Assembly (NCBI GenBank): GCA_937927195.1
Contig: CALBCY010000069.1
Span: 1-64,000, forward strand
Direction: 5' to 3'
Source of the DNA: an uncultured Chitinophagales bacterium
GTDB taxonomy: Bacteria > Bacteroidota > Bacteroidia > Chitinophagales > UBA2359
Length of the DNA stretch: 64,000 nt
The notes below the pieces were generated by a model, which worked only from the letters and a program-made list of their open reading frames with translations, ran no database searches and was not told the origin of the DNA. Positions 29,501 through 60,249 of this stretch are shown piece after piece; position 1 is the first letter of the stretch; each line of letters starts with the position of its first letter. Made by a program: the position numbers and the translations under genes.

Positions 29501-29701
29501 ATGAGCAACCCATTCAAACAAATTACAGACAATGCCAATAAATCCCAAAAGAAATGGGAAAGGAAGGAAGCATCCGAACTAGTAGGAAGAAAATGTGAAG
29601 GTTGTGGTTCCGCAAGACCCAAAGACACAAATTTGACAACTTGTGATTATTGTGGCTTTAAATTTATGTCCATTGATGAAGAAATTAAAACGGATAAATA
29701 A
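29501..29701 (+). CDS. Small zinc-ribbon protein
   Basis: 66 residues from ATG 29501; 14 further residues from 29459 are unlikely. A lysine-rich N-terminus (NKSQKKWERKE) precedes a zinc ribbon with CEGCGSARPK and CDYCGFKF. No other domain is present. Its stop shares one base with the next start, so it is coupled to another zinc-ribbon protein. Role unknown; it may be an adaptor of the following module. Confidence 0.75.
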   Translation: MSNPFKQITDNANKSQKKWERKEASELVGRKCEGCGSARPKDTNLTTCDYCGFKFMSIDEEIKTDK

Positions 29702-30552
29702 TGTTCAATTTTTTCAATAAGAAACAAGAAAAAAAAGCCGAAGACCAAGCCGAATTTATTGAATTGGTAAAAAGGTGGGATGCCTTTCTAATCAACATTG
29801 AGGGCCGGTTTGAAGACTTGTTAAGTCATGCAGAATCTGCTGTAATGGACAATTTAGTAACTAGCAATTTTGACATTTTACCCACGACAAGAGCATGGAA
29901 TGGTATAAAAAGTCAGTTAATGGGGCTGATGCAAAAGATTGAAGACACATTTGATGACAATGTAAAACCAAAAATGCAAGCCTTCAAAGAAGATTATGAT
30001 TTGATAGATGAAAGTAAAAAAGGAACCCGATTGGCAGAATCAATTTACCATCGCATCAATCGATGTGAAATAGAATTGGAGGGCAAGTTGGCGCTTAAGT
30101 TCTATGATCATGCCATTCAATTTTTAAATGAAGATTTTAACTGCAGTCAATGTGGAGGAAAAGTAAATGCAAGAAATGATCTCTTTCGTTCACATTACCT
30201 TAGTTGTGATTATTGCAATACCGTCAACACATTTACTCCCAACTCAAAGGTAAATGAAATCCAAGGCTTTGCGATAGATAACATTGCAAAATATAAAGCC
30301 ATTCAAGAATGGGAAGAAATGGAAAAAGCTGAACAATTGTTTGGAGAAATTAGATGCCCACACGGAACAGAAGACAAAACGAATTACATAAATGGATTTA
30401 AAAGGAGGGAGGAAACGCTCCGCACCTATTGGAACAAATATTACAACGAACGCAGTCAGTTATTGCCTGAAACAAAGGCGAGCATTGAGTCAGATGTAGA
30501 AAACAAAATGAAGCATTTTTACTCAGAACGAAAACGAGAATTAAATTTTTAA
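29701..30552 (+). CDS. Helical protein with a zinc ribbon
   Basis: 283 residues. Amphipathic N-terminus MFNFFNKKQEKK, long helical region (about 15-145) compatible with coiled coil, a zinc ribbon at about 148-175 (CSQCGGK and CDYCNTVN), and a second helical part with a lone CPHG near 220. No signal peptide. The general plan, a helical membrane-associated-type protein plus zinc ribbon beside an SPFH gene, recalls the PspA-linked YdjG/YdjH group of Bacillus, but I see no direct homology signature. Unknown function. Confidence 0.7.
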   Translation: MFNFFNKKQEKKAEDQAEFIELVKRWDAFLINIEGRFEDLLSHAESAVMDNLVTSNFDILPTTRAWNGIKSQLMGLMQKIEDTFDDNVKPKMQAFKEDYDLIDESKKGTRLAESIYHRINRCEIELEGKLALKFYDHAIQFLNEDFNCSQCGGKVNARNDLFRSHYLSCDYCNTVNTFTPNSKVNEIQGFAIDNIAKYKAIQEWEEMEKAEQLFGEIRCPHGTEDKTNYINGFKRREETLRTYWNKYYNERSQLLPETKASIESDVENKMKHFYSERKRELNF

Positions 30553-30570
30553 TCAGTAAATAAAAATATT

Positions 30571-31170
30571 ATGGAAGCAATTAATGGAGTAACATTTAAA
30601 GATTATGCCTGTGCATCAGCCAACTTGGTGGCAGGAATGCCTATAGAGAAAATATGTGACGTATTAGGAATAGAAATGCCAGTTTGGGAGGCTACCAAAG
30701 ATGCCTGGAATAACAAAATGGCAGAATTATCGATGGAAGACATGAAGTTTTATGGAGAAGTTTTCACGAATCCAAAGCAAGGAAAATTTGCAAATGTGGA
30801 AGGTGGAGCTGCTGGCCCAGAAGTAGTTTTAGCCAAATACCCTGAATGGAGTGATACCATCAAAATGGAAAAATACATGGAGCATGCGAGTGCCGTTGGT
30901 ATTGACATCGACTTCGAAAAAGAGTTTGACATTTCTCTAACTGCCTATTCACAATTAGCAGGGCACTGGTCAGCCTATTACAAGGAGCATGTCGTTGATG
31001 TTCAAACGAGGTCATCAGAGCAAATTCTAAATGACGACTGGAATGAAGCGCAAGTAAAGGCCGGAAAGATAAGTGAAGAAAGAGATTCAATCGCTGAAAA
31101 ATGGGATGCACATTACAAAGAAGTTTATAAGAACACTGCCGCAAATGTAGCAGAAGACATCGAATTTTAA
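30571..31170 (+). CDS. DUF6620-like protein
   Basis: 199 residues, acidic, no signal or membrane helix. The N-terminus (INGVTFKDYACASANLVAG) and the repeated 'W' helices look like the DUF6620 family from Bacteroidota; this is from memory and tentative. It lies 18 bases after the zinc-ribbon gene and is followed by a strong terminator, so it ends the first transcription unit of the island. Confidence 0.55.
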   Translation: MEAINGVTFKDYACASANLVAGMPIEKICDVLGIEMPVWEATKDAWNNKMAELSMEDMKFYGEVFTNPKQGKFANVEGGAAGPEVVLAKYPEWSDTIKMEKYMEHASAVGIDIDFEKEFDISLTAYSQLAGHWSAYYKEHVVDVQTRSSEQILNDDWNEAQVKAGKISEERDSIAEKWDAHYKEVYKNTAANVAEDIEF

Positions 31171-31264: not shown

Positions 31265-32458
31265 ATGAAAAATGTTTTACCAGCCTATCAAAGACCCATT
31301 TATTCCATAAGTGATCCAATAATCAATGTAGATGAATGGGAGAAAGCAACAGATGCTTTTGATGAAAAAAATTACAAACAATCGATAATACATGTCATCA
31401 ATTATGTAAATCCAAAGTTGTTGGAAAATATTGATTTAACAGGAAACATAAAGATTTCTCAAATGCAGGGAAGTGCAGAAATAAATATTGAAATTTCTGA
31501 GAATGGATTTTCTGTGCAAGCTCCTTTTCTAAAGATGACTGACAAAACCAACAAGGTAGCTCTTAAAAGGAAGATTGCCGAGGTCAATTTTCATCCTTTA
31601 ACCTTGGCACAAATCCGTCAGATTAATCATGATTTTTGGTTTGAGTTTGAGACAGAATTGGTCTTATGCAATCCACACAAAATTTATGATGTCTTAAAGG
31701 AGGTTTGTGTGTTGGCAGACGATTATGATGACCTGTTTATTGAAAAATATAAAGCGGAATTTTACAAAACACCAAAAGTAACGGCTTTATCTGAGGAAGA
31801 ATTGGTTCAGGTTTGGAATCAAATATCTAAGGTATTCGAAGATTACCAAAATTATTTTCAATTGTTCACAGAAAAACGCTGGGAAAATTTTAAATGGGAC
31901 ATCATAATGATTTCTCTATTGAAACTTTCTAACATGGCCTACCTAAATGGCAAACTACGATCAGATTTAATTGAGTATGTCAACCTAATGCTCGATCAAA
32001 ATATGGAGTTCAAAATGAGGGTTGATAAGGGGATCAATTTCATGAATCAGCTTGTAAAAAAATCCAAAGAAGAAATTTTAAAAAATGTATATCATGCTGA
32101 GCAATTACAATCAAATCGTTGGAGAAGTTCTGAAAAAATAATTTCTGAGAGACTTGAAAATTGTAAAGAACAAGTCGATAGTTACATGACCAGTGACAGT
32201 TTCTTCAATCTTTCCTATTACCTGCAATACACTTTTCTTAAACTCATCTATGATTACAATCTAAATGAGGATTATAGAAATGCAATCCATACCGCTCTTG
32301 AAAACGCAGCAGGACTAAGCCCTGAAATTGGATACAAAACGCTTGTTGACACCTTTTCTGATTTACTGAACGCAACCGTTAAAAAACCATTGCTCAAGAA
32401 CGAAGATGTAGTTACAAAAAAAGTCAAAAAAGGTTTCTTCGCTAAACTATTTTCTTAG
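31265..32458 (+). CDS. Uncharacterised helical protein
   Basis: 397 residues without signal peptide or membrane helix. The first 110 residues alternate beta and alpha elements, possibly a YbjN/type III chaperone-like fold. The rest is strongly helical and rich in Tyr, Leu and Asn, ending in a basic, hydrophobic tail VKKGFFAKLFS that could touch a membrane. I do not recognise a family. It lies 17 bases upstream of the protease gene and probably belongs to the same module. Confidence 0.6.
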   Translation: MKNVLPAYQRPIYSISDPIINVDEWEKATDAFDEKNYKQSIIHVINYVNPKLLENIDLTGNIKISQMQGSAEINIEISENGFSVQAPFLKMTDKTNKVALKRKIAEVNFHPLTLAQIRQINHDFWFEFETELVLCNPHKIYDVLKEVCVLADDYDDLFIEKYKAEFYKTPKVTALSEEELVQVWNQISKVFEDYQNYFQLFTEKRWENFKWDIIMISLLKLSNMAYLNGKLRSDLIEYVNLMLDQNMEFKMRVDKGINFMNQLVKKSKEEILKNVYHAEQLQSNRWRSSEKIISERLENCKEQVDSYMTSDSFFNLSYYLQYTFLKLIYDYNLNEDYRNAIHTALENAAGLSPEIGYKTLVDTFSDLLNATVKKPLLKNEDVVTKKVKKGFFAKLFS

Positions 32459-32475: not shown

Positions 32476-33546
32476 ATGGAAAACAATATTAAAGATTCAA
32501 TTTACAAAGTCATCACTTCTTCTGGTTCAGGAACTGCTTTTAAAGTAGAAAACAAAGATTTTATAATCACCAATTACCACGTAGTAAGAGGCAATAAAAA
32601 AGTGGCCTTAGAGTCACACAACAAAGATCGATTTTTAGCGAATGTTGTTATGGTAAACACAAAACTAGATTTGGCATTTCTTCATGCTAATGAATTGCGA
32701 GATGCCAAAGGATACATCAAACTAAACCCTGCAACAGAAGTAAAAAACCAGCAAAAACTGTCAATAAATGGATTTCCATTTGGGATGCCTTATACAGTAA
32801 CTCAAGGAATTGTTTCTTCTACAAACCAACCGATGCTTGGAAGAAATTATTTACAAACAGATGCTGCTGTGAATCCAGGCAATTCAGGTGGTCCAATGTT
32901 AAATGAAAGTGGAGAATTGTTAGCTGTTACAACTTCTAAGTTCAAAGATGCCGACAATATAGGTTTCGGAATATTGGCTGAAGATGTCATGAAACAAGTA
33001 AATAACTTCACACTGCATGAGGACTTGTATCAAGTCAGATGTAACTCTTGTGATACATTGATTGCGAGTGAAACAGAGTTCTGTGAAAATTGCGGTGCAG
33101 ATGTTGACAAATCAGTCTTTGAAGAATTTGAGAAATCCTATTTCGCCGAATTTACAGAAACAGCGCTAGAAGAACTAGGCATCAATTCTATTCTTTGCCG
33201 AGCAGGCAGAGACTACTGGGAATTCTATCAAGGAAGTGCTCTAATCAGAATATTTGTTTATAAAAACAATTATTTATGCGCGACCTCTCCTTTAAATGAA
33301 CTACCCAAACAAAACTTAAACAGCTTGTTGGATTACATCAATTCTAATAAGGTTGCTCCATACATGTTAGGCTTAGATGATAATAAAATCTACTTATCCT
33401 ATCGAACACATTTGTCAGATATCTATTCAGATAAAAAAGAAGAAATCAAAAAACAATTGACTAACCTCGCTTTGAAGGCTGATGAATTGGATGACATTTT
33501 TGTAAAGGAATTTTCTTGTGAAATGTCGATAGAATCAAAAAAATAA
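32476..33546 (+). CDS. Cytosolic trypsin-like serine protease with zinc ribbon
   Basis: 356 residues. HtrA/DegP-like chymotrypsin-fold protease (about 5-175) with an intact triad: His35 in NYHVV, Asp65 in LDLAFL, Ser137 in GNSGGP. There is no signal peptide, so it should stay in the cytosol, unusual for this fold. A zinc ribbon follows (about 190-215, CNSCDTL and CENCGAD), then a C-terminal domain of about 130 residues (FTETALEELGI...) resembling YbjN/type III chaperone-like modules. No PDZ domain. The zinc ribbon and chaperone-like domain probably choose partners or substrates, perhaps the adjacent SPFH protein (inference). Confidence 0.82.
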   Translation: MENNIKDSIYKVITSSGSGTAFKVENKDFIITNYHVVRGNKKVALESHNKDRFLANVVMVNTKLDLAFLHANELRDAKGYIKLNPATEVKNQQKLSINGFPFGMPYTVTQGIVSSTNQPMLGRNYLQTDAAVNPGNSGGPMLNESGELLAVTTSKFKDADNIGFGILAEDVMKQVNNFTLHEDLYQVRCNSCDTLIASETEFCENCGADVDKSVFEEFEKSYFAEFTETALEELGINSILCRAGRDYWEFYQGSALIRIFVYKNNYLCATSPLNELPKQNLNSLLDYINSNKVAPYMLGLDDNKIYLSYRTHLSDIYSDKKEEIKKQLTNLALKADELDDIFVKEFSCEMSIESKK

Positions 33547-33551
33547 GTACA

Positions 33552-34541
33552 ATGAATGTATTCAATCAGTTTCGATCAGTCATTCAATGGGATACTCCAA
33601 ATGACCAAGATCTTTTCATAAAATTCACCAGCAAAGGAGAAGAAATTAAAAATGCTTCTACCCTTACTTTATTGGATGGTCAAGCATGTATTTTAACCTA
33701 CGAAGGGCAAATTGAAGGAATCTTAGAAGAAGCAGGTACTTATGATCTGAAATCTGAGAATAAACCCTTCATTACAAGCATTAAAAAATTCCTTCAATTT
33801 AAAGAAGGAAGTGAGCATTTGATGGGGATCTGGTTTTTCAGGAAAGCCGATATTCTAAATATGCGGTGGGGCACTCGTGTGCCAATTGCATATAAAGATC
33901 CAATTTACAAATTCCCAATCTTATTGACAGCTTTTGGTAACTATTCCATTCGAATTACTAAACCCAAATATTTTTTCACCAATATTTTAGCCGGTCAAGA
34001 AGTTTACTGCAAAAGTGACTTAAAAGAAATATTCATTTCCAGAGTGGTCCAACCTATCACTGATTATTTAGCAAATGCGAAATTTTCATTTCAAGAGATC
34101 GATGCAAATTTGGAAAGCATTGCTGCTATTGCCAGAGAAAGAACTGCTCCAATTTTTGAGGATTTAGGATTTGAAATCATTGATTTCAGAATAGAAGGTT
34201 CACAGTTTGATCGTGAAACATTGAATCGAATCAATGAAATTTCAGATGTCCAAGCAGAAGTAAATGCTGCTGAAATAGCAGGTGTCAATTTTGCAGAATT
34301 ACAAAAATTAAAAGCCCTTCGTGATGCAGCGAAAAATGAAAGTGCAGCAGGAATGGCAATGGGGATGATGTCTGGTTTGAACTTAGCCAACGATACCCAT
34401 ACCCCCTCAATTCAAAACAATGCACTTTCAAAGGATCAGTTAAAATCAAAACTCAAAGACTTAAAAGAGCTATTCGATGAGGATTTAATAACAGAGGAAG
34501 AATACCAAGACAAGCGAAAGGCTTTGATGGAAAAATTTTAG
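33552..34541 (+). CDS. SPFH-domain protein with C-terminal SHOCT
   Basis: 329 residues. Virion-core/YdjI-type SPFH protein: an N-terminal beta region with 'RSVIQWDTPNDQDLFIKF', the SPFH core to about 225, a helix rich in Ala (VNAAEIAGVNFAELQKLKALRDAA), an Ala/Met/Gly-rich linker, and a SHOCT helix pair at 295-329 (LKDLKELFDEDLITEEEY). SPFH proteins form rings or scaffolds at membranes; YdjI recruits PspA in Bacillus. Only five bases separate it from the protease gene, so joint function is likely. Confidence 0.85.
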   Translation: MNVFNQFRSVIQWDTPNDQDLFIKFTSKGEEIKNASTLTLLDGQACILTYEGQIEGILEEAGTYDLKSENKPFITSIKKFLQFKEGSEHLMGIWFFRKADILNMRWGTRVPIAYKDPIYKFPILLTAFGNYSIRITKPKYFFTNILAGQEVYCKSDLKEIFISRVVQPITDYLANAKFSFQEIDANLESIAAIARERTAPIFEDLGFEIIDFRIEGSQFDRETLNRINEISDVQAEVNAAEIAGVNFAELQKLKALRDAAKNESAAGMAMGMMSGLNLANDTHTPSIQNNALSKDQLKSKLKDLKELFDEDLITEEEYQDKRKALMEKF

Positions 34542-34571: not shown

Positions 34572-35267
34572 ATGCTTATAAAAATTTTATTCGCTTTAAT
34601 AGGCTTGATTGCAGGCGGTATGTTTGGTTTGTTTGGAGTCTATTATCTTTGTGTTTTCATAGATTATTTGAATCCTCCAAAGCCGGGCGCTGGAATGGGG
34701 AGTATAGGATGGGTGTTTACCTTCGTAACCGTTCCCCTGTTTGCCATTATAGGGTTTACTTATGGCATAAAATTATCTTCTAACAAAATGAAAAACGACT
34801 TGGACTATCGCATCATTGCAGACGAATTGACTGGAAAGACCAAGCTCTCTCTCGTTGAAGATCAAGAAATCACCGATGTTGAAAAAGAATTGAATATAAG
34901 ATTCGAATCCGATTACAAGAGGTACGTGACTACTTACGGCATTGGAATTCTAGGCGGATCTTTCATTCGAATATATGCACCTTGGAGAATTAAAAATGAA
35001 AGGACACAATGGACAAAACGAATTACGAAGTTTTATTTTTGGAATGATAAAAATTTGAATAAAGACCAAGTGTTACAATCACTGATCATTGGCGATACGA
35101 TGGGTGGTGATGAAATTATATTTTATGCAAACCAATATTATGTATTGCCGCATAGCAAAACAGAAATATTTTCCATTGGTCAATCATTGAATGAGGCGAT
35201 TGAATGGTTGTGTTCTTCAGGAGTTTTAACTGAAGCTTTTAAGGAAAGAAACTTTGAACCGTTTTAA
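34572..35267 (+). CDS. Membrane-anchored SUKH (SMI1/KNR4)-like protein
   Basis: 231 residues. Two N-terminal membrane helices (about 2-26 and 44-66) and a cytosolic domain (about 92-225). That domain starts 'DVEKELNIRFESDYKRYVTTYGIGIL', the layout of SUKH immunity domains, and ends with a short helix 'SLNEAIEWLCSSG'. SUKH proteins usually neutralise nuclease toxins; no toxin gene is seen here. The assignment is from pattern, not from a search. Confidence 0.6.
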   Translation: MLIKILFALIGLIAGGMFGLFGVYYLCVFIDYLNPPKPGAGMGSIGWVFTFVTVPLFAIIGFTYGIKLSSNKMKNDLDYRIIADELTGKTKLSLVEDQEITDVEKELNIRFESDYKRYVTTYGIGILGGSFIRIYAPWRIKNERTQWTKRITKFYFWNDKNLNKDQVLQSLIIGDTMGGDEIIFYANQYYVLPHSKTEIFSIGQSLNEAIEWLCSSGVLTEAFKERNFEPF

Positions 35268-35271
35268 AGCA

Positions 35272-36441
35272 ATGAAATTTTACAGAAACCAAACTATGCT
35301 ATTAAAAGCAATAATTATTTTCCTGCATTTATCAACGATATTTTGCCTCTCTCCAATACTGCTCTTTGCAAACAATAAAAAACCATTGATGGAACAAATA
35401 TTTCAAGACATAAAAAAAATTGAGGAAGAATTTTCCAAATCATTTATTGAAGCTATCTCATCAAAATCAATAGAGGCTTGTGCAGACTTAGTCTTAAGTT
35501 ATGAGGACAACAGTACATTAGAAGTTGACTATGGCTTATCAGAAAAACGCTATAGAAAAAGATTACTTGAACAAAGTGAAAATTTTTTAAAAGGGCAGAG
35601 CAAATTTATTGACAAAAAAAATGCAGCATTAGAAAGTGCTATTTCTTTTGAAAATTTTGAAGAGATAAATACTTATGATTTCGAAATTCCAAAGAAACAT
35701 CCTGCATGTTTTATAAAAACCATTTCTATCACCATGAAAAAGCGATTGGTGGATGGTATTTTTTATCAAGTGGGATTTCAAATTGAGGATGCGGTTTTTG
35801 TTAATGGAAAAATTAAAATTAACAATCTATTTTCTGTTAGGATGCATGAAAGTTTTTGGGATGAAATTAATGAAGAGAATACTCCCTACCTATTAATTGA
35901 GGATAAAGCCAGTTTAAATGAAATCTTAGGTAACCACTCCGATAGAGAATATGCAGAAATTTTGGATCATTACAATAATTGGTACCTACATACAGGAGAC
36001 CTAGTTCTTGATAGCTATGAGGTCAAAGTCAATCTAATTGTAACAGGAAACTTAAAAATAAAAGAGCCAGTAACTGAAGTCCTGCACGAGTTGATAGTGT
36101 TAGGAAATACCTCTTTAAACACTTTATTTTTAGAAGAAACAAATGATGTTTTGTTTCTAGGGGGAATAGAATTTACCGTCGGGCTTTTTATTATGGATTC
36201 TGGAGCTTATCAAATATTTAATAGTCCGAAAGGCCCAATTATATTTGCCCAATCTGAAACAATAGAAGTTGAAAATACACAAAACATACTGTGCCTATAT
36301 GCTCCAGAGTTGGATAAAAATGGTGATTATTCTGAAATAATATTAGATGAATTTTGCGGCAAAGAGGAAGGTAATGAATATTTAGAAATTGAACTCATTA
36401 TCGAAACACTTCGAGCAGAAAGGCCAATTTTCAAGAAATGA
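35272..36441 (+). CDS. Exported protein with a beta-solenoid (polymer-forming-like) segment
   Basis: 389 residues from ATG 35272; the frame to 35254 overlaps the previous gene. A hydrophobic N-terminus (LLKAIIIFLHLSTIFCLSPILLF) suggests export or anchoring. Residues 70-190 look alpha/beta. Residues about 235-335 contain short beta strands of the 'GDLVLDSYEVKVNLIVTGNLKI' type, a right-handed solenoid pattern also found in the products of 42533-43249 and 43514-47836. The C-terminus is acidic. Function unknown. Confidence 0.6.
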   Translation: MKFYRNQTMLLKAIIIFLHLSTIFCLSPILLFANNKKPLMEQIFQDIKKIEEEFSKSFIEAISSKSIEACADLVLSYEDNSTLEVDYGLSEKRYRKRLLEQSENFLKGQSKFIDKKNAALESAISFENFEEINTYDFEIPKKHPACFIKTISITMKKRLVDGIFYQVGFQIEDAVFVNGKIKINNLFSVRMHESFWDEINEENTPYLLIEDKASLNEILGNHSDREYAEILDHYNNWYLHTGDLVLDSYEVKVNLIVTGNLKIKEPVTEVLHELIVLGNTSLNTLFLEETNDVLFLGGIEFTVGLFIMDSGAYQIFNSPKGPIIFAQSETIEVENTQNILCLYAPELDKNGDYSEIILDEFCGKEEGNEYLEIELIIETLRAERPIFKK

Positions 36442-36602
36442 AACTGATCATTGCAAAAAGAAAGATGACAGATCAAGGGTCGAACAAAGAATTTCGTTCC
36501 TAGATTGATCAAGACGGAAATCTTATAAGCTCAGAAGAATATAATGAGGATTTACTTCGGAATGCAGAAAATGGATTGCTATATTGGAATCAATTAAAGT
36601 AA
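36438..36602 (+). pseudogene. Short frame interrupted by an in-frame TAG
   Basis: ATG 36438 overlaps the previous stop as ATGA. The frame reads 21 codons (MKLIIAKRKMTDQ...), TAG at 36501-36503, then 32 further sense codons (IDQDGNLISSEEYNED...LLYWNQLK) to TAA 36600-36602. Both halves are in one frame and look coding. It is a nonsense-interrupted small gene, or two tiny frames; readthrough is possible but unsupported. Confidence 0.5.
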
Positions 36603-36631
36603 AATTATTGGAACAACAGATAAGACAAAAC

Positions 36632-37675
36632 ATGAAAACAGAAAATATCACATTATTTTACAAACAAGAAAAAAGCGACAAAATTTACAAAGCATCATTG
36701 AATGAAAAAGAAGGCCTGTTTGTAGTCAACTTTGCTTATGGTAGAAGAGGTGCTACACTTAAAACTGGAACAAAAACCCAGGCTCCAGTAGATTATGAAA
36801 AAGCAAAAAAAATCTATGACAAACTGGTTCATTCTAAAGCTGCAAAAGGTTATGTTCCTGATGCTGATAGTTCAGATTATGTTTACGAAAGCGATCAAAT
36901 AAAAACAGGCATCCATTGCCAATTACTGAACCCTATCGAAGAAGATTCCCTCCAGGATTTCATTGAAAGCGAGGAATGGTGGGCACAAGAAAAAATGGAT
37001 GGAAAACGAATGCTCATTCAGAAATCGGATGAAATAATTGCCATCAATAGAAAAGGTTTTTCTGTTGGTGCCCCGCAATCTATTATTGAAAGTGCCGCAA
37101 AATCAGATCGTACATTTATTCTGGATGGCGAAGCAGTTGGGGACTTTTTATTTGTTTTTGATGTTTTATCATTAGATGACAAAGACTTAAAAAGTAAAAC
37201 ATATAAAGAACGCTATGATTTGCTCATCAGTTTGGAGTTAACTGATGCAATAAAAATTGTTCCGACCTCAAAATCCAAATCCCAAAAAGAAGCATTGATT
37301 AATAAACTGAAATCAGATGGTTCAGAGGGAGTGGTTTTAAAAAAACACGATTCGCATTATCATGCAGGACGACCTAACAGTGGTGGGAACCAGATGAAAT
37401 TTAAATTTTATGATACTGCTACCGTAATTGTATCAAAAATTAATGACAAGCGAAGTGTGGGGATGACATTATTAGAAAATGGCGAGGAAATATTCGTGGG
37501 CAATGTTACGATTTCAGCTAACAAAGAGATTCCAAAAGAAAGAGATATTGTTGAAGTGAGGTATTTATATGCCTATAAAGGAGGCAGTCTTTATCAACCT
37601 ACATTTTTAAACAAAAGAACTGACATTGATGAAAAAGAATGTTTGTTAAACCAATTAAAGTATAAGAAAGAGTGA
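36632..37675 (+). CDS. WGR domain fused to an ATP-dependent DNA/RNA ligase
   Basis: 347 residues from ATG 36632 (the longer frame begins with TTG and overlaps the broken frame). Residues 1-75 form a WGR domain with NFAYGRRGATLKTG. The rest is a nucleotidyltransferase-type ligase: motif I EKMDGKRM with adenylated Lys121, RKG, motif III ILDGEAVGDFLFVFDVL, motif IV EGVVLKK, motif V QMKFKFY, followed by an OB-fold. All catalytic motifs look intact. WGR domains bind nucleic acid ends in PARPs, so this enzyme likely seals nicks in DNA or RNA. A direct WGR-ligase fusion is notable. Confidence 0.88.
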   Translation: MKTENITLFYKQEKSDKIYKASLNEKEGLFVVNFAYGRRGATLKTGTKTQAPVDYEKAKKIYDKLVHSKAAKGYVPDADSSDYVYESDQIKTGIHCQLLNPIEEDSLQDFIESEEWWAQEKMDGKRMLIQKSDEIIAINRKGFSVGAPQSIIESAAKSDRTFILDGEAVGDFLFVFDVLSLDDKDLKSKTYKERYDLLISLELTDAIKIVPTSKSKSQKEALINKLKSDGSEGVVLKKHDSHYHAGRPNSGGNQMKFKFYDTATVIVSKINDKRSVGMTLLENGEEIFVGNVTISANKEIPKERDIVEVRYLYAYKGGSLYQPTFLNKRTDIDEKECLLNQLKYKKE

Positions 37676-37814: not shown

Positions 37815-37830
37815 ATGAATGAATGAATGA
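37815..37830 (+). repeat. Four tandem ATGA units at a start codon
   Basis: ATG occurs at 37815, 37819, 37823 and 37827. The first three open only MNE-stop frames; the fourth starts the next gene. This may allow re-initiation, or be a slippage site. Confidence 0.6.
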
Positions 37831-38234
37831 ATAGATCAATAAACATAAAAAAATTAGAACCGACCAAGCACATGTTTGAATGGCTGGCTGAAAAACCATT
37901 CGAAACAATGCTTAATAATATTGACAGCATCCTTTCCAAACAAGTAAAAAATGCTAGCATACAACATTTCGAAGCTATTAGTGAACCTCAATGGTTGAAA
38001 GGAGGAATACATGATGAAAATAATGTAAACAAGGTTGTTTTAGTAAGGACTGGAGTTGCATTTGAATTTAAACTTACGGTGATTAGCCCTGATGGTAAAG
38101 AACTACTAAGCGGTGTCTATTCTTGGGTAAGAAAAAAAGTAGGAGATCAATTTTATTCCCAAACTTGGTTTGACATCAATGGAACACTTGATGAATTTGG
38201 AGACAAAGGAGCTTTGGCAGAAAGAATTTATTAA
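37827..38234 (+). CDS. Uncharacterised protein, intact member of a locally duplicated family
   Basis: 135 residues, no signal or membrane helix. The central part has beta-strand character (VVLVRTGVAFEFKLTVIS) and the C-terminus reads 'QFYSQTWFDINGTLDEFGDKGALAERIY' in type. The decayed frame at 41498-41731 aligns to two regions of this protein, showing that the family was duplicated here. Small, cytosolic, likely immunity-like by context; no known domain recognised. Confidence 0.6.
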   Translation: MNRSINIKKLEPTKHMFEWLAEKPFETMLNNIDSILSKQVKNASIQHFEAISEPQWLKGGIHDENNVNKVVLVRTGVAFEFKLTVISPDGKELLSGVYSWVRKKVGDQFYSQTWFDINGTLDEFGDKGALAERIY

Positions 38235-38243: not shown

Positions 38244-38768
38244 ATGGCCATATATTTTGATATTATTATTCCTTTGGAAAAGCTGTTCAAAAGAATAACA
38301 GCACTAAAGCTGAATGAGCAGTTGGATGGCTATTGCGGTTATTTCAATATAAAAACAAAGGACAGCAATATAAAAATAGATTTATCAAATTATGACGCCT
38401 CTGTTTTCAATCATCCTGATTACAGCTTTTTCTTTTTGATTTCAAAACAGGCAAACTTCAAGGCTGAAAAATCTCCATATGATGATTCTTTCTTTCCTTT
38501 CACTATTGAAATGACTGGTGGGAGAGAAACCGAAACAGAGATAGAACAACTTAGGTTTAGAGGACTTGCAAAACAACCTGACAAAGAAACCGACAAAGCT
38601 TTTCAGAAATTACAAAGGAGTTTTAACAAGGATTCAAATATAGGGAAAGGTTTGCATTGGGGGAAGCATTTTTATAAAAGAAAATATTATGAAAAAAATA
38701 AAAAAAAAATAGTTTGGGGAAATTTTAAAAATAGAGGTGTTGGCCCAATCCCAAATAATGAAGATTAG
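38244..38768 (+). CDS. Uncharacterised basic protein
   Basis: 174 residues. The first 120 residues look alpha/beta; the C-terminal 50 are very basic (HFYKRKYYEKNKKKIVWGN), suggesting nucleic-acid or phospholipid contact. No family recognised. It lies nine bases after the preceding gene, so the two are likely co-transcribed. Confidence 0.6.
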   Translation: MAIYFDIIIPLEKLFKRITALKLNEQLDGYCGYFNIKTKDSNIKIDLSNYDASVFNHPDYSFFFLISKQANFKAEKSPYDDSFFPFTIEMTGGRETETEIEQLRFRGLAKQPDKETDKAFQKLQRSFNKDSNIGKGLHWGKHFYKRKYYEKNKKKIVWGNFKNRGVGPIPNNED

Positions 38769-41731: not shown

Positions 41732-41762
41732 ACACATTTCAACATTTATATTAACTAGAATA

Positions 41763-50820: not shown

Positions 50821-50983
50821 AATATCCAAAGCATTTCATATACAATGTTGCCAATATACCTTCGACAAATTTTACGAATATAAATTTGCCAACAACACTT
50901 GTCAATTGTCCAATATTTATCTCAATATTGTAGCCTAAATTGCATTGGCAATTTAGTTCTAAGGGCAATTGAAATTATTCAAA

Positions 50984-52807: not shown

Positions 52808-53349
52808 TGACCATAGAAAAATTTTACGATGTTTTGTTTCAACGAATAGAAGGTTTGGAAAGAGATTTGGAAGAATACCTGTTGGCATTGCACAAGATAG
52901 TTTTAGAAGAACAAAACAAGACGATTTCATTTGAATTGATAATTGATATGCTGGCAAAGGCTTTTACCACTAAGCCATCTCCTTTTGATGAACAATGGTT
53001 GGAAATCACTCAATCGCCCCGTCAAAATGGGAGGAGTCGAAAAATGACGAATCCTGATTTTAAAGATTTAGTGGACAAAAACACACCGTCTGATTTGGAG
53101 GGACTTGCTTTTACATTGGAAGTGATAAAGTTTCAAGCAGCAGAACTAAATAAGATGAGAGGCAAGCAATTAAAAGATAAATACAAAGAATTTGGTATAA
53201 ACTCTGAAACAGGAAACCGTTGGTACAATTTCAAACCTCATTCCAATCTGTCTTGTGGGATTAGATGCATGATTGACAATGATTTGGAAGAAGCAAGTGA
53301 TTGGTCTTTTATTGGTTACCTGTTGGAGGATGGTAGAATTTATGAATAA
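52804..53349 (+). CDS. Uncharacterised protein
   Basis: 181 residues, mostly helical. The C-terminal end 'WYNFKPHSNLSCGIRCMIDN...DWSFIGYLLEDGRIYE' looks like a conserved block that I remember from hypothetical proteins in immunity-type arrays. No known function. It overlaps the WGR-SUKH-TPR gene by four bases; an ATG at 52807 is an alternative start one codon later. Confidence 0.6.
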   Translation: MMTIEKFYDVLFQRIEGLERDLEEYLLALHKIVLEEQNKTISFELIIDMLAKAFTTKPSPFDEQWLEITQSPRQNGRSRKMTNPDFKDLVDKNTPSDLEGLAFTLEVIKFQAAELNKMRGKQLKDKYKEFGINSETGNRWYNFKPHSNLSCGIRCMIDNDLEEASDWSFIGYLLEDGRIYE

Positions 53350-53360: not shown

Positions 53361-53681
53361 ATGATTAGCATTTATAATATTGCTTTCGATCTTACATTCC
53401 TATTTATCGAAACAATAAAAATAGAGATTTCAAGATTCTTTTTTAAACAGTTTTCGATATCAATAGATGTTTATCATGAAATATTAGAAGCGAGAGAACC
53501 AAATTATAAAAACATAATTTTGTATGTATCAAAAGAAAACTTTGAAGTTTTTAAATTCAAAAATGATACTGGAGACTATGAAATGAAAACACAATTATTT
53601 GATAAGAATGGTAAAATAGATTTCACCATCCATTTAGAAATAAAAACAATTAATGGTATGACCAAGCCATTTTTCATTTAA
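53361..53681 (+). CDS. Uncharacterised small protein
   Basis: 106 residues. A hydrophobic N-terminal part (AFDLTFLFIETIKIEISRFFF) and a beta-rich remainder ending IKTINGMTKPFFI. No domain recognised. It lies 11 bases after the previous gene, same strand. It may be a short immunity-type domain. Confidence 0.5.
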   Translation: MISIYNIAFDLTFLFIETIKIEISRFFFKQFSISIDVYHEILEAREPNYKNIILYVSKENFEVFKFKNDTGDYEMKTQLFDKNGKIDFTIHLEIKTINGMTKPFFI

Positions 53682-53710: not shown

Positions 53711-54361
53711 ATGACAGAGAACCAAGAATTTATCAATGAATCAATTTACGACCAAGTTAGAATGGGATTTCTTTCCTTTGAAGAAATCAAAGAAAATATT
53801 ATTGAAGAAATTGAAGACAATGGATTTGAAGAAGAAATTTCCAAGGATTGGGCAATTGAAAAAATTGAGAACGAGTTTAAATCCTTAACTGAAGAAAGCA
53901 AGAACTGGAAAAAACCAACAGACACTGAAAAACTAGTTAAAGCATTTGATGAACTCTGTAAAAATAATATCATCGCTCTACACAAAGCTGGATACACCTC
54001 TGGCGATGGACACAATGAAGCAGTAGAAGTGGAAAGGAGTTTACGCAAACAGAATGTCATTTCAGATGGATATTGTTTTTATCATGAGCAAGATTTGGCT
54101 AGGGCCATTCAAAAAGAAAATCCAAGTTTATACATTGCCTTTCAAAAAGTGGACAATGAAAGTGATGAAGTAACCATAGCTGTCGGAAAGCAAATCGTGG
54201 CTACTTTAAACGAAAATGGCTTAGAAACAGAATGGGAAGAAGTACCAAATAAAAGGATCTTAATTCCCAATTTCAAATGGCAACTTCTATATGACGAAAA
54301 CAATAGAGATTTAGAAGATTATGAAAAGACGCTAGAATTATTGATTCAGGCAAAGAATTAA
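53711..54361 (+). CDS. DUF6891-like protein
   Basis: 216 residues. An acidic helical N-terminus is followed by a domain with 'GYTSGDGHNEAVEVERSL', 'GYCFYHEQDLARAIQ', 'LYIAFQKVDNESDEVTIAVG' and 'GLETEWEEVPNKRILIPNFKW', which matches my memory of DUF6891. This family is frequently found next to WGR and other immunity-type genes. Cytosolic; function unknown. Confidence 0.65.
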   Translation: MTENQEFINESIYDQVRMGFLSFEEIKENIIEEIEDNGFEEEISKDWAIEKIENEFKSLTEESKNWKKPTDTEKLVKAFDELCKNNIIALHKAGYTSGDGHNEAVEVERSLRKQNVISDGYCFYHEQDLARAIQKENPSLYIAFQKVDNESDEVTIAVGKQIVATLNENGLETEWEEVPNKRILIPNFKWQLLYDENNRDLEDYEKTLELLIQAKN

Positions 54362-54463: not shown

Positions 54464-55162
54464 ATGAAACACGAGCTTTATTATCAAGATGACACGTCCA
54501 ATAAATTTTGGACCATAGAACTTAAAGGAACAGGATACATCACCTCAAACGGTCGAATAGGTTCAAGTCCTCGAACAAATGAGAAAGATTGTGGAGATGT
54601 AGAAACAGCAAAAAAGCAAATAGAAAAGCTTGTAAAATCGAAACTAAAAAAAGGATACAAAGTGGGCGTCCCTCCTAGCTATGAAAAACCAGACTGGTCC
54701 GCTATGAAAATGAACGATGAAATTTTTTGGAGAATAATCAACCTTTTAAACTGGAAAAAGACTGGTGACGACAATGCCGTCTTAAAGTATTCTGTTCAAG
54801 CCTTATCTGAAATGGAAGTATCTGAAATCGAAAAATTCGAAGACATTATGAGCGAAAAACTATTCACTTTAGATACACTTGAACATGCAAAAGAAATTGG
54901 AGAAGAAGCTTATAGGGAAGGAAAATATTTTTCAAATGATTGGTTCTTGTATTGCAGATGCTGTGTTGTTGCAAATGGAAATTTATTTTATAAAAAAGTT
55001 CTAAAAAATGCCAAAAGCTTCCCCAAAGATTTGGAATTTGAGGCACTACTTTCTATTGCGAGAGAGGCATATGAAATGAAAACGAATGAGGAATGGAATT
55101 ACTTCAATGATAAAATTTCATACGAAACTTACTCCAACGGAGAAGGGTGGAAAGTTAATTAA
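54464..55162 (+). CDS. WGR domain fused to a DUF4240-like domain
   Basis: 232 residues. WGR at 1-65 (NKFWTIELKGTGYITSNGRIG; the glycine-Arg-Ile-Gly core is kept), then from about 80 a helical domain with 'DEIFWRIINLLNWKKTGDDN', 'EIEKFEDIM' and 'YFSNDWFLYCRCCVVANGNLFY', the layout of DUF4240. DUF4240 proteins are otherwise single-domain hypothetical proteins of actinomycetes and others. Cytosolic; the fusion suggests that WGR acts as a common targeting module in this island. Confidence 0.75.
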   Translation: MKHELYYQDDTSNKFWTIELKGTGYITSNGRIGSSPRTNEKDCGDVETAKKQIEKLVKSKLKKGYKVGVPPSYEKPDWSAMKMNDEIFWRIINLLNWKKTGDDNAVLKYSVQALSEMEVSEIEKFEDIMSEKLFTLDTLEHAKEIGEEAYREGKYFSNDWFLYCRCCVVANGNLFYKKVLKNAKSFPKDLEFEALLSIAREAYEMKTNEEWNYFNDKISYETYSNGEGWKVN

Positions 55163-55242: not shown

Positions 55243-56118
55243 ATGATACCGACCTGGAAAGAATACAACTACATTTCTAAGCAATCGTATAAAGACATTG
55301 AACAATATGAAATAGTGAAAGCTGACTTTGAGAAATGTACTTTCCATCAGGTCTCATTTTATTGGAATGAATTTCATTGTGTTGACCTCAAAGAATGTAT
55401 TTTTGTCAATTGCACATTTGCAGGTGTTTCATTTGTTGATAGTACTTTCGTGAAATGCACTTTCTATAATTGTGAATTTGTAAAAAGTAAAAAAGGGAAT
55501 TATCCAACATCCGAAGATTCTTATGCCATAGATTGTATTATTGACGAATCATCTTCTCAAAATAATCCATTAAGCATTCAACAAGCAAAAGACGAAGTAC
55601 TCTTAACGCCAGAAATAAAACAACTGCTCTACAGTACATTTGTAGAGCGGAGACCAGATTTAGCAGTAGATAAACCTGGACATTGTTTATCCTGTGAAGA
55701 GACACAAGAAACACATGAAAAAATAATAAAATTAGAAACCTTGACGGTTGACCATTTTAGTATTTGCTATATGTCTGTTGAGGCATTTTCACAAAAGGCC
55801 CTACGGTATTATATGCCAAAATTGTTAGAATTATTATTGTCTGGTGAAGAAAACAAATGGGATAGTTATAAAAGAGGCTTCTTAAGTCAATTAATCCCAA
55901 ATCAATTTGGAGACAGGTTTCAAGACTATCATCAAGAACAAATAAAGTTGATTGTAGTCTTATTGGAATTGTTCTATAATAAATACAATAAAATAGAAGA
56001 AACCTGGGATTATGAAAAAGAAATGATGACTGATGCATCTATGTATAAAGATGAATTGGAACATTGCCAACAAGCCATAAAATTTTGGAGAAATAAATGG
56101 AATGATAACAATGAATGA
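55243..56118 (+). CDS. Pentapeptide-repeat protein with DUF6714-like C-terminus
   Basis: 291 residues. Residues 25-85 contain pentapeptide-type repeats (ADFEKCTF, DLKECIFVNCTFAGVSF, STFVKCTFYNCEF) with many Cys. The C-terminal part has 'PDLAVDKPGHCLSCEETQETHE' and 'YMSVEAFSQKALRYYMPKLL', similar to DUF6714. Pentapeptide folds can mimic DNA shape; here only about eight repeats are present. Cytosolic, function unknown. Confidence 0.62.
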   Translation: MIPTWKEYNYISKQSYKDIEQYEIVKADFEKCTFHQVSFYWNEFHCVDLKECIFVNCTFAGVSFVDSTFVKCTFYNCEFVKSKKGNYPTSEDSYAIDCIIDESSSQNNPLSIQQAKDEVLLTPEIKQLLYSTFVERRPDLAVDKPGHCLSCEETQETHEKIIKLETLTVDHFSICYMSVEAFSQKALRYYMPKLLELLLSGEENKWDSYKRGFLSQLIPNQFGDRFQDYHQEQIKLIVVLLELFYNKYNKIEETWDYEKEMMTDASMYKDELEHCQQAIKFWRNKWNDNNE

Positions 56119-56122: not shown

Positions 56123-56329
56123 ATGAGTGACATTAGAAACAATCATAGAAAAGAGAATTACCTGGATAAAATCTTAGAAGAAACTTTAAAAAGTATTGAC
56201 ATAAAATTTAAGGAACTACGATTTATAGGAATCATTGCCGGACACGTTTATTTTGAATTTGGAGTGGTTGAAATTTCAGTTTTCATTCATAATAAAACCG
56301 AAGTTATTCAATATTATAATTGGATTTAG
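56123..56329 (+). CDS. Uncharacterised small protein
   Basis: 68 residues, starting five bases after the previous stop. Basic N-terminus (NNHRKENYLDKILEE), then beta-strand character (FIGIIAGHVYFEFGVVEISVFI). It could be a complete small domain or a truncated relative of an immunity protein. No family recognised. Confidence 0.45.
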   Translation: MSDIRNNHRKENYLDKILEETLKSIDIKFKELRFIGIIAGHVYFEFGVVEISVFIHNKTEVIQYYNWI

Positions 56330-56386: not shown

Positions 56387-58984
56387 ATGAAAATAAAAGC
56401 TAGTAAAAATTCAATAGAAACACTGAGATTGTTATACGAATGGGAGAAAAAAAATGAACCATACAACATTCAACTTCACAACATTGAATTGTACGAGGAT
56501 TTCGAACAAATTGATTTTTTAAATGATTGGTTTGGATTCGATTTTGACAGCCAATACCAAGATCGATTTTTAGCCTTTGGAGATGATGGAACAGGGGGCT
56601 CTATTGCTTTATGGTTTTATCCAGGCCTAAATAGTCAACCTCCAATAGTCTTTGTCGGTAGTGAAGGCCAAACCAACTTTATAGCAAACTCTATGGAAGA
56701 TTTTGCCTGCAAACTTACGACTGGAAAGGTGTTAAATCCAAATAGCATAGACGATGGCAGAACCGCAAAAACCATTTGGTCTGATATTAACAAATGGCAA
56801 ATAGAAGACTTGGCTGCAAAGCATCAAATAAGTGCGAAAAAAGCAACAAAGCGATTGGATAAAAGCATCTCTAAATTTAAAAATTTCGTCCATAAAAAAA
56901 TACTTTGCAATGAAATAGTGAGTATCACAAAAACTGCAAAACATCCAGATTTTATAAAGTGGGCAGACTCAATATTTGATAAAAATCCCGAGGAAACATT
57001 AAAACTCAAAAAGGAAAAAGAGGCGCTACATCTAGAACTGTTTGACAATGGATTGATGGAGGTGCCCTTATCCATATTGGACAACCCTGACATTATAAGC
57101 TTGGATTTAAGCGACAATAAAATTTCTGTTATTCCTGAATTCATTACGAAACTGACTCAATTAGAAGATTTGGTTTTAAACAACAATCTAATAGCTGAAG
57201 TCCCAACCTTTCTGACGGAATTGAAAAACTTAAAAAATTTAGATTTAGACCATAATCAAATTAAATCGCTACAGTTAGATATTCCTTCAATGAAATCTTT
57301 AGAGTTCCTTAGTCTTAATGAAAATCCAGATTTCGAATACATTGACCCTAGTATTTACAACTCTACTTCACTGCTAGATTTTGATTATGACTCAACAAAA
57401 TTAGAATCAGAATTGAGCAAATTAGATTTCATCTCTAAATCAATTTCAGAAAACATCCTAAATGACATCGAAGACTATTTAGTGAATTTTGATATAGATA
57501 CACCTGAACAAGAAACCATAGAGCAGACCTTACAAAAAAGAGTCCAGTTGTATCCTACCATAAACAATCTGTATCATTTCGCCAAAGCCTATCAATATGA
57601 TTTTGATAATCACCAAAAATCTGAAGAAATATATCTAAAAGTTTTAGAGATAGAAAACATAGATCCACAACTTAAGGGAACTATTTATTCTAGTTTAGGT
57701 AGCCTTTATTGGCATTCTTTCAACGACAATGACAATGCAAACAAATACATGCAATTGTCAATTGAGCAAAGCCCCAATAATGAAGATTGCTTAGAAAACT
57801 ATGCATCATTTTTAAGCATTTCAAATAGAGATTTAGAGAAATCAAAAAAATTATACAAAAGACTAATTAAGTTAGCACCAAAGAACAGAACACATCTAAA
57901 TGAATATGCTGATTTATTGTCCACCAAGTTAGACGACTATAAAAATGCCATAAAAGCATACAAAAAATGCTTGGCTATAAAAAAAACGGAGCAAACATAC
58001 AGTGACTATCTACATGCCCTTTGGATGAATGATTCTTCTACAGAAAAAATAGAGAACGTTTACAAAAAGGCTTTAAAGAAATATCCAAAATCAAAAAACT
58101 TAATACAGACTTATGCTGAATTTCAAGCCAGTATCGGAAACACAGCTTTTTATGAAAAGTACATTAAAGAACGCATTACAAAAAAACCAAACAAATTAAA
58201 ACTGGTTTTGGATTACATTGGATTTTTAATTGAACAACAAAAAAATAAAGACGCCAAGCCAATAATAGAAAATGCAATTGCTAAATTTGGAGAGGACATT
58301 AGATTATTAAGACATCAGGCGCGTGTTTTAGTAAGCCTAGATTCAGATCCAAAGATTACTGAAAGCATATTTAAAAAGATTTTAGCCAAATCTGATAAAA
58401 TTGAAATGGATCAATTTGTCTACTTAAATTTTCTATTTAAATCTGGATCAGATTCAGAGAGCGTTATTAAACTCGCCAAAGAAACTAAAAAACTGCTAAA
58501 CAATTCTAGTAGCAAGAATTCTGAAAATTGCATGAACATTTGCGATCAAATAATAAAAGCTAAATCCTTTGATGAGACCAAAGTGTCTACGACTGGATTC
58601 GAGAATGAAATTGCAAAATTCAAAGGCGACAATGATAAATTAATTTTAGCAAGCAAACAAGCATTTGAAGAAGGGAATAAGGGTAAATCATTAGCATTTA
58701 TTAAAGCAGTAGAAAAGACAGACCCCAACCACTACAATATGCTGAGTCTCTATGCCAGCATTAAAGCAGCATCTAGCGGTCCAAAAAATGGATTCGACTA
58801 TTTATTAGAGAAACAAAAAGATAGTCCCAAAAGCAAAAATGTTTACAAAGCCATCATAACATTTTGCATGCTGGGCAACAAACTGAAGCATGCATTAATG
58901 TGGTCTAGGATCGCAATAGAAAACTTACCAAATGACAAAGAGCTAAAATCCAATTTGGAATATTTTGAAAATTTAGATTTGTAA
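56387..58984 (+). CDS. SUKH-LRR-TPR protein
   Basis: 865 residues. The SUKH-like core is at about 30-110 ('FLAFGDDGTGGSIALWFYPG', 'PIVFVGSEGQ', 'ANSMEDFACKL'). Leucine-rich repeats at about 213-325 follow the 'LxxLxLxxNxIxxxP' pattern (SLDLSDNKISVIPEF, DLVLNNNLIAEVPTF, NLDLDHNQIKSL). Long TPR/half-TPR arrays then run to the C-terminus. No signal peptide or enzyme motif. It shares its SUKH core with the products of 41763-42548 and 50984-52807 but lacks a WGR; a scaffold or receptor-like role is inference. Confidence 0.8.
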   Translation: MKIKASKNSIETLRLLYEWEKKNEPYNIQLHNIELYEDFEQIDFLNDWFGFDFDSQYQDRFLAFGDDGTGGSIALWFYPGLNSQPPIVFVGSEGQTNFIANSMEDFACKLTTGKVLNPNSIDDGRTAKTIWSDINKWQIEDLAAKHQISAKKATKRLDKSISKFKNFVHKKILCNEIVSITKTAKHPDFIKWADSIFDKNPEETLKLKKEKEALHLELFDNGLMEVPLSILDNPDIISLDLSDNKISVIPEFITKLTQLEDLVLNNNLIAEVPTFLTELKNLKNLDLDHNQIKSLQLDIPSMKSLEFLSLNENPDFEYIDPSIYNSTSLLDFDYDSTKLESELSKLDFISKSISENILNDIEDYLVNFDIDTPEQETIEQTLQKRVQLYPTINNLYHFAKAYQYDFDNHQKSEEIYLKVLEIENIDPQLKGTIYSSLGSLYWHSFNDNDNANKYMQLSIEQSPNNEDCLENYASFLSISNRDLEKSKKLYKRLIKLAPKNRTHLNEYADLLSTKLDDYKNAIKAYKKCLAIKKTEQTYSDYLHALWMNDSSTEKIENVYKKALKKYPKSKNLIQTYAEFQASIGNTAFYEKYIKERITKKPNKLKLVLDYIGFLIEQQKNKDAKPIIENAIAKFGEDIRLLRHQARVLVSLDSDPKITESIFKKILAKSDKIEMDQFVYLNFLFKSGSDSESVIKLAKETKKLLNNSSSKNSENCMNICDQIIKAKSFDETKVSTTGFENEIAKFKGDNDKLILASKQAFEEGNKGKSLAFIKAVEKTDPNHYNMLSLYASIKAASSGPKNGFDYLLEKQKDSPKSKNVYKAIITFCMLGNKLKHALMWSRIAIENLPNDKELKSNLEYFENLDL

Positions 58985-59043
58985 ACAATGCAAAAAGACA
59001 AGCAAATGGCCAATAGAATTCCAAAACCAATCAAACTCCATAA

Positions 59044-60249
59044 ATGAGAATCAAACAAGTTATTTTATTATTGTTAATCTACACATCTTGCTATTCTCAA
59101 ACAACCTATTTCAGTAAAAACTGGAAAGAAACGTCCAAAGAAAAAGCACATTTTTATCGCCATACAAAGTCTATCAATGATTCACTTTTTGCAATTAAGG
59201 ATTATTATATAAATGGCATTTTGCAAATGGAAGGATCTATAAATGCAGAACAAGAAGAAACCCTTCATGGCAGGGCAATTTGGTACAATGATTTGGGGCA
59301 AAAAACCAGTTCCATGGTTTATGAAAATGGCATTGTCAATGGAATCGTGGAAACCTATTACAATGACACTTTAGTCACTACTGGAATTTACAAACAAGAC
59401 GAACCTTTTAACGGCCAGTTTGCAAACTTTGAGCGTAAAATTTATATGAAGCTTATTTCAACTTATCTAAATGGAACAAAAGTTTCAGAATATTTTCCCT
59501 ATCACAATGGATTAGAAAAAGGAGCAGAAGTGTTTTATCAACTTGATGGCTTAAATTCTGAATTTCCTTTAAAGAAAGTATTCTACAATCGAAATGGAGA
59601 TGTAATTGGGGACGTTTTTTATAAAGCAGATAGTGTCTATCCAAATGAGATTGTAAAAGGGACACTCTTTGAGTTTAACGACATCGATGGATTCATTACG
59701 ACTATTCTAACTAAGAAGAATTACAAGAATGGAAAGAAAGAAGGCGAGGCTGTTTATTACGACCTTGATGAAAACGTAAGGGCCCTAGGGATTTTTAAAG
59801 AAGATCGTCCATTCAATGGATTTTTTATCTTTAGAGACAGACAAGAAGAATATCTCAATGGAAAACAAATTGGGCAAGAAATATACTTTGACTATGATTT
59901 GAACGTCATTGCCCAGGTTTCTATCATTGATGAAAAACCCTTTGATGGAATTACCATAGATGGTGCTTCCAAATACTTTTATGAAAAAGGAGTGCTGGAA
60001 AAGATAAACTACTATTTTATCAATACGAATCTAAAAGATCTAGAATCTGTTATCGATTACCACGACAACAATACTTCTCATCGAATGTGGTACAATCAGG
60101 AAGGTAAAGAAATTGCAAAATGCTTGTTTAACGACGGACAGCCATTTGAAGGCGTCTATTACAGAGCGTATCAAAATCTTTATGAGACCTATAAAAACGG
60201 GCAAAAAACAGTTTTTGACAAAATCGATGAGGGCGATCAGAAACAATAA
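59044..60249 (+). CDS. Exported YwqK/MORN_2-repeat protein
   Basis: 401 residues. Signal peptide (VILLLLIYTSCYSQ) followed by many YwqK-type repeats such as 'GRAIWYNDLGQKTSSMVYENGIVNG', 'NGKKEGEAVYYDLDENVRALG' and 'FKEDRPFNGFF'. Proteins of this kind are annotated as 'toxin-antitoxin system YwqK family' but without demonstrated antitoxin function. Same plan as the 40381-41379 product. It is the last gene of the co-directional island. Confidence 0.72.
   Translation: MRIKQVILLLLIYTSCYSQTTYFSKNWKETSKEKAHFYRHTKSINDSLFAIKDYYINGILQMEGSINAEQEETLHGRAIWYNDLGQKTSSMVYENGIVNGIVETYYNDTLVTTGIYKQDEPFNGQFANFERKIYMKLISTYLNGTKVSEYFPYHNGLEKGAEVFYQLDGLNSEFPLKKVFYNRNGDVIGDVFYKADSVYPNEIVKGTLFEFNDIDGFITTILTKKNYKNGKKEGEAVYYDLDENVRALGIFKEDRPFNGFFIFRDRQEEYLNGKQIGQEIYFDYDLNVIAQVSIIDEKPFDGITIDGASKYFYEKGVLEKINYYFINTNLKDLESVIDYHDNNTSHRMWYNQEGKEIAKCLFNDGQPFEGVYYRAYQNLYETYKNGQKTVFDKIDEGDQKQ

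Follow-up and report, generated by a model that had tools for sequence, protein, structure and literature searches.

A plus-strand gene island in an uncultured Chitinophagales bacterium is probably a mosaic of conserved modules and an immunity-type array

The analysed window comprises 64,000 nucleotides of a contig (CALBCY010000069.1) from an uncultured Chitinophagales bacterium. All 30 genes chosen in positions 29501–60249 lie on the plus strand, as the original prediction held. The intergenic gaps have a median of 44 bp, with 6 of the 29 exceeding 140 bp (long gaps lie at 41380, 43250 and 50261) and the largest reaching 708 bp, so the island is not a single tight operon. Pfam recognises WGR, Band_7_1, Trypsin_2, ATP-dependent ligase, SUFU, SUKH, DUF6620, DUF6891, DUF4240, pentapeptide, LRR and TPR families, and about half of the island proteins have no family match. 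The WGR domain exceeds the Pfam cut-off in four proteins, the number predicted, and four of the five WGR matches in a scan of the whole genome fall inside the island. The predicted SUFU, SPFH, cytosolic trypsin-like and WGR-ligase proteins are likewise present. The features are as follows, all on the plus strand (+), with the supporting evidence in brackets.

29501–29701, +, z1, small protein containing two CxxC pairs, unit 1 (sequence; a homologue adjoins z2 in 6 of 8 loci)
29701–30552, +, z2, helical, with zinc ribbon C148/C151/C169/C172, unit 1 (four Cys invariant)
30571–31170, +, d3, DUF6620 part, unit 1 (PF20325 5.2e-7, above cut-off; alignment)
31265–32458, +, s4, chaperone-like protease partner, unit 2 (neighbourhoods, alignments, profile matches)
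32476–33546, +, trypsin-like protease without signal peptide, with zinc ribbon and s4-related C-terminal domain, unit 2 (Trypsin_2 1.8e-23)
33552–34541, +, SPFH protein with SHOCT-like C-terminal end and no transmembrane helix, unit 1 (Band_7_1 5.9e-28)
34572–35267, +, SUKH protein with hydrophobic N-terminus (PF09346 7.2e-8)
35254–36441, +, x8, hydrophobic N-terminus, otherwise without family, unit 3 (66% in L014/L022)
36584–37675, +, WGR and ATP-dependent nucleic-acid ligase, unit 3 (PF01068 3.3e-18)
37827–38234, +, x10, 135 aa, unit 3 (55% in L014)
38244–38768, +, x11, orphan (no significant Pfam and no NCBIfam match)
38813–39379, +, x12, Cys-rich orphan (homologue in L050, 46%; more places in G001, G123, G369)
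39575–40324, +, membrane protein, orphan (Pfam, hydropathy)
40381–41379, +, x14, orphan with hydrophobic N-terminus (Pfam, hydropathy)
41639–41728, +, remnant of a broken gene like x10 (30 aa at 43% identity to x10 of L014)
41763–42548, +, SUKH-like protein (shared core by BLAST)
42533–43249, +, x16, orphan (no Pfam match; weakly similar to x8)
43514–47836, +, 1440-residue protein with C-terminal WGR, unit 3 (Pfam WGR; homologue 66% in L014)
47889–48458, +, x18, orphan (74% in L047, 46% in L046)
48535–49212, +, SUFU (PF05076 1.5e-43)
49209–49751, +, x20 (60% in L048; 38% in L049)
49748–50260, +, x21 (homologues in several genomes)
50407–50820, +, open stretch lacking a usable start, perhaps a dead gene (ORF list, gap searches)
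50969–52807, +, WGR, SUKH-like core and TPR (Pfam, BLAST)
52804–53349, +, x23, orphan (no Pfam match)
53361–53681, +, x24, orphan (no significant Pfam match)
53711–54361, +, DUF6891 protein (PF21831 1.4e-53)
54464–55162, +, WGR-DUF4240 (Pfam)
55243–56118, +, pentapeptide-repeat protein (Pfam)
56123–56329, +, 68-residue ORF of doubtful gene status (no Pfam match)
56387–58984, +, SUKH-like core, LRR and TPR (Pfam, BLAST)
59044–60249, +, repeat-rich protein, orphan (no significant Pfam match)

The G+C content is 0.32–0.35 in parts of 29501–60249, against 0.37 in 1–26300 and 60613–63240. It is also 0.32 in the two genes immediately upstream, a TPR histidine kinase and a response-regulator-like gene (26793–29374, same strand), and this pair could be a candidate controller of the island. 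At 194–1564 the window encodes a bacterial homologue of vitamin K-dependent gamma-carboxylase (HTTM and lumenal domain). No recombinase was found among the ten flanking proteins scanned, nine of which lie to the left of the island. The DUF5686 gene on the right flank is matched in 10 of 20 genomes, not counting our own; in the five genomes examined its neighbours match nothing else in the window, and no empty site emerged from them.

Relics of related genes had been predicted between the island genes. One is present: the gap 41380–41762 contains a C-terminal remnant of the x10 family (blastx: E 4e-4 against x10 of L014; 38%, E 0.006 against the island's own x10). The stretch 50407–50820 lies open between two stops, yet no usual start gives an ORF of 60 aa there, and neither Pfam nor NCBIfam recognises it. 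The other gaps gave no convincing match. The solenoid segment proposed for x8, x16 and the 1440-residue protein was not recovered by hhalign, which gave only weak pairwise scores (probabilities 1, 12 and 1%). Predicted structures were too poor for use, with a mean pLDDT of 38.5 for x8 and 31.7 for residues 1–1100 of the 1440-residue protein.

Homologues of z2, d3 and the SPFH gene occur together in all eight loci around z2 or d3 matches (L032–L034 and L037–L041), at 20 to 61% identity to the window across unit 1. The genes follow three different orders, and the order of the window, z1-z2-d3-SPFH, is kept in two loci. Seven of the eight loci come from one genus (g90) of another family and the eighth from a second family, so the loci are not independent. 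The count omits six further genomes with z2 or d3 matches; in two of these, G179 and G334, the z2 and d3 matches lie at most 1 kb apart. Unit 1 is uncommon, with a z2 profile match in 4 of 208 genomes, our own included. All eight aligned z2 sequences keep the four zinc-ribbon cysteines. By hydropathy, the SPFH protein has no transmembrane helix, and z1, z2 and d3 lack any strongly hydrophobic segment; Pfam finds no PspA match, and in d3 a Virulence_fact match below threshold. No SPFH relative was found in viral contigs.

In Bacillus subtilis, YdjI offers a precedent for a membrane-associated SPFH assembly that has zinc-ribbon partners (PMC8581546; PMC9239133). Its operon, pspA-ydjGHI, resembles unit 1 in that an SPFH protein lacking a membrane anchor of its own is encoded together with a zinc-ribbon protein (PMC8581546; PMC9239133). 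Unit 1 differs in having no PspA match and no transmembrane partner, with DUF6620 in their place. By this comparison, unit 1 might produce a cytosolic SPFH oligomer that acts with zinc-ribbon partners at the membrane under stress.

The s4 and protease genes form unit 2. In a coordinate comparison, s4 lies adjacent to a trypsin homologue at 31 of 39 s4 places and in 29 of 37 genomes, our own included; these places are drawn from genomes up to G202, the span of the trypsin matches, with 27 s4 matches in higher-numbered genomes excluded. The protease stands next to s4 in six of the seven s4 loci examined, and such pairs are common in the order. At E-values up to 1e-60, 61 of 208 genomes have a trypsin homologue; our own is among them and has a second copy at G000:C94. 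A hydrophobic N-terminus is absent from the protease by hydropathy. Its residues H35, D65 and S137, which we take to be the catalytic triad after the trypsin family, and its four zinc cysteines are invariant in seven of seven sequences. In two genomes the protease is longer and carries a SHOCT-like end resembling that of the SPFH protein.

Profile comparison relates the C-terminal domain of the protease to that of s4 (hhalign probability 75%, pairwise E 2.6e-5), and a chaperone-like domain appears to be common to the two partners. The s4 domain has a weak match to Tll0839, a protein of known structure (2plg; E 0.0021, and E 0.0044 for the whole s4 family) with a type III secretion chaperone-like fold. 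The profile of the protease C-terminus fails to find 2plg, its best PDB match having an E-value of 0.24, and CesT is touched by only one of seven members (E 0.067). The s4 protein ends in a KKGFFxKLF-like tail (window 32400–32455) whose final LF is invariant in eight of eight sequences; the tail is perhaps a docking or membrane motif. Through related chaperone-like domains, the cytosolic trypsin-like protease would pair with s4.

In the window, the s4–protease pair lies between d3 and the SPFH gene, a nesting in unit 1 seen only here among the loci examined; G307 has unit 1 on one contig and unit 2 on another. According to the accessible text of PMC2636767, SPFH proteins pair with proteases elsewhere, namely the NfeD serine protease and FtsH. 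The island is comparable to the systems of that text in placing an SPFH gene beside a serine-protease gene (PMC2636767). Its protease, unlike the NfeD type, is a cytosolic Trypsin_2 protein of trypsin fold with a zinc ribbon, and the s4–protease pair, unlike the SPFH–NfeD pairing, is apart from SPFH in the other loci examined. The nesting of unit 2 in unit 1 is the sole direct hint of joint action, and it may serve the recruitment of the protease by the SPFH assembly.

Unit 3 consists of x8, the WGR-ligase, x10 and the 1440-residue protein. The four genes are contiguous in a Saprospiraceae metagenome bin of another family (L014), where the ligase is 82% identical to that of the island. The set is flanked there on one side by OmpA, PorP/SprF and CHU_C genes, and the rest of the island is absent. 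L014 and L022 are the same contig and were counted once, and unit 3 is known from two genomes. As far as examined, co-occurrence in a distant genome, the check named in the original prediction, holds for this four-gene set and not for the ligase, protease, SPFH and immunity genes as one system. Relatives of the 1440-residue protein without its WGR were found in 1 of 298 genomes, namely our own; the L014 genome gave no match there and apparently lies outside that sample.

The ligase itself is found more widely. A scan of a species-level genome collection returned three loci; the gene occurs in 5 of 396 genomes of the order, our own included and one cut by a contig end, and in 1 of 296 genomes of the phylum, again our own. 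Five other carriers (L015, L016 and L023–L025) have no other island relative, L023–L025 being short contigs of 4.7–6.8 kb and the ligase gene of L025 being cut by the contig end; the ten scanned neighbours of the ligase differ between these loci. The island ligase is closer to its counterpart in the other-family L014 (82%) than to those of the same-genus G001 (65%) and the same-family G005 (63%), which argues for transfer. It also occurs in 18 plasmid records (31–45% identity among the 15 matches listed of 18), in one phage, Tunturi_5 (33%), and in six viral contigs (28–45%). The WGR-ligase gene is mobile, carried by plasmids and phages. These WGR-ATP ligases have both domains in common with the island protein; they differ in their surroundings, with no match to x8, x10 or the 1440-residue protein nearby in 12 loci (six viral contigs, five plasmids and one phage). 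Beyond the ligase and WGR, no other island match was found at E 1e-3 in these 12 loci, which include L057 and L059, by appearance near-copies of one virus. No x8 was found in plasmids, and no 1440-residue protein in viral contigs (two patterns) or plasmids (residues 1–1100).

Motif I of ATP-dependent DNA ligases is KxDGxR, and in the island family K137, D139, G140 and R142 are invariant in four of four sequences, which fits this superfamily. In PARP enzymes, WGR domains attach to nucleic acid close to breaks, and on this ground the WGR-ligase may have a role in nick or end repair. Unit 3 would then be a mobile set for processing DNA ends or nicks, its WGR domains perhaps bringing the ligase and the 1440-residue protein to nucleic-acid ends.

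Several other WGR arrangements were observed. By eye, the N-terminus of the 1440-residue protein (43514–43710) resembles a degenerate second WGR, where Pfam finds none. A same-family genome (L027, 7253–16094) encodes tandem WGR-ankyrin proteins of 1442 and 1453 residues, whose common part with the 1440-residue protein by BLAST is WGR only. In a Tsukamurella plasmid (L063, 5986–11223), a WGR-ligase gene is followed on the same strand by a gene of 125 residues and an AAA-type gene of 1145 residues, a row similar to unit 3 in gene size. We rejected this arrangement as a counterpart of unit 3 because its two genes are unrelated to those of the island (hhalign 0.1 and 0.7%, AAA-type matches); they may form another ligase-linked set.

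The original prediction joined the ligase, protease, SPFH and immunity genes into one undescribed system. In the other genomes examined, none of three elements, the SPFH operon, the protease pair or the WGR-ligase, is found with either of the other two or with relatives of the island SUKH and SUFU genes. One system is rejected on these gene neighbourhoods, because the related genes elsewhere fall into independent units. An integrated conflict system, with the SPFH scaffold, protease, ligase and immunity proteins jointly active, would account for the co-location, the common strand and the recurrence of WGR in four proteins; it is very improbable given the separation of the modules in other genomes and the 12 plasmid, phage and viral-contig loci in which the ligase stands without other island relatives.

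The WGR-ligase scores against the PADLOC models WGR_XIII and HEAT-ARM_XIII, and its ligase part alone reaches 38.8 bits against PDLC02920 (HEAT-ARM_XIII). That model seems to contain a WGR-ligase sequence, and so may mislabel such genes as retron parts. Type XIII retrons combine a reverse transcriptase with SWIM and WGR genes; WGR is common to both, whereas the reverse transcriptase is absent from the island. A retron origin of the WGR-ligase is rejected, as Pfam scans of the island show no reverse transcriptase nearby. The genome does have a type XIII retron set elsewhere (L026, G000:C163:14000–33999, minus strand 3808–5343, 5566–7215 and 7221–10292), and its reverse transcriptase, SWIM and WGR proteins are very strong PADLOC matches.

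These comparisons bear on the possibility of an anti-phage defence island, in which unit 3 would sense and process phage DNA ends and the SPFH–protease set would lead to abortive infection. PADLOC counts WGR among the components of type XIII retrons, two models of which the ligase matches, and the accessible part of PMC7159879 places trypsin-like proteases in conflict systems. Yet Pfam scans of the island recovered no reverse transcriptase or nuclease family, PADLOC on 10 of the 30 island proteins gave nothing beyond similarities to protease, WGR and ligase and a single weak match to GajA, and s4–protease pairs are common in the order. We regard an anti-phage role for the whole island as unlikely.

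The remaining genes include four of SUKH type, one SUFU, one with LRR, and orphans, not all of them adjacent. The protein at 34572–35267 passes the PF09346 cut-off. It carries a SUKH domain different from the core that, as predicted, is shared by 41763–42548, 50969–52807 and 56387–58984 (pairwise BLAST 6.6e-22, 1.8e-10 and 3.6e-6); two of these three cores reach PF09346 below cut-off and the third not at all. No toxin domain exceeds the Pfam cut-off in the island, many proteins of which match nothing. We follow the definition of heterogeneous polyimmunity loci in the available portion of Zhang et al. 2012 (PMC3482391). The remaining island genes resemble, at the level of sequence, such a locus in their SUKH, SUFU and LRR families, single orientation, mostly small gaps and, so far as Pfam matches go, lack of a recognised toxin gene, as far as that portion describes these loci. 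Its text contains no WGR, DUF4240 or pentapeptide proteins, so the assignment of the WGR proteins to immunity is our inference. Each of the SUKH, SUFU, DUF and orphan proteins might bind and block a different incoming toxin.

Array members recur singly in relatives. The congeners G001 and G002 have one member each (x12 and x20, respectively), in drafts 82–83% complete with two candidates scored per genome; as the homologue search scored the two best candidates in every genome, absences are weak. In L049, x20 lies two genes from a SUKH gene; in one locus, a DUF1266 gene is found at the same distance from x18.

The likeness to polyimmunity loci that had been predicted extends over 34572–35267 and 38244–60249 except for the 1440-residue protein, and does not extend to the island as a whole, into which three conserved modules without a known immunity role are built. 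If the whole stretch were a single heterogeneous polyimmunity locus, the protease, SPFH and ligase genes would be further immunity factors. Common orientation, mostly small gaps, the presence of SUKH and SUFU and the lack of a toxin domain above the Pfam cut-off are all compatible with this. Against it, units 1 and 2 occur elsewhere as fixed sets, and none of their 15 loci (L032–L045 and L051) has a BLAST match to the island SUKH, SUFU or WGR proteins, a search that more divergent SUKH genes would escape. We consider a single locus of this kind quite unlikely.

A mosaic accretion island is the probable explanation: three or more modules, each conserved independently, joined to a mixed array of immunity-type genes. 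The genes brought together are most likely those of envelope stress, nick repair and immunity. The common strand over 30 kb counts against a mosaic, being also expected of one selected system. The gene content, the module structure, the conserved catalytic and zinc residues and the likeness of the two chaperone-like domains are established; biochemical roles and physical contacts are proposed throughout by inference. Except for unit 3 and the s4–protease pair, the parts of the island are of known kinds, and their combination is new among polyimmunity-like islands. A literature search, with most subscription papers outside its coverage, found no description of unit 3, the s4–protease pair or the whole island set. 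It is possible, though doubtful, that unit 3 is a self-contained, horizontally moving system of an undescribed kind, active in nucleic-acid end processing or in defence and having a partner that is membrane-anchored or exported, and that the s4–protease pair constitutes a second undescribed system, a cytosolic protease distinct from unit 3 and able to couple with an SPFH scaffold.

The island indicates that polyimmunity-like loci can fuse with stress and repair modules, and cautions against reading such islands as one system. It also isolates two units for study. One is the mobile set of the ligase and the giant WGR protein; the other is the protease pair, which is widely conserved and whose two members seemingly share a chaperone-like domain.
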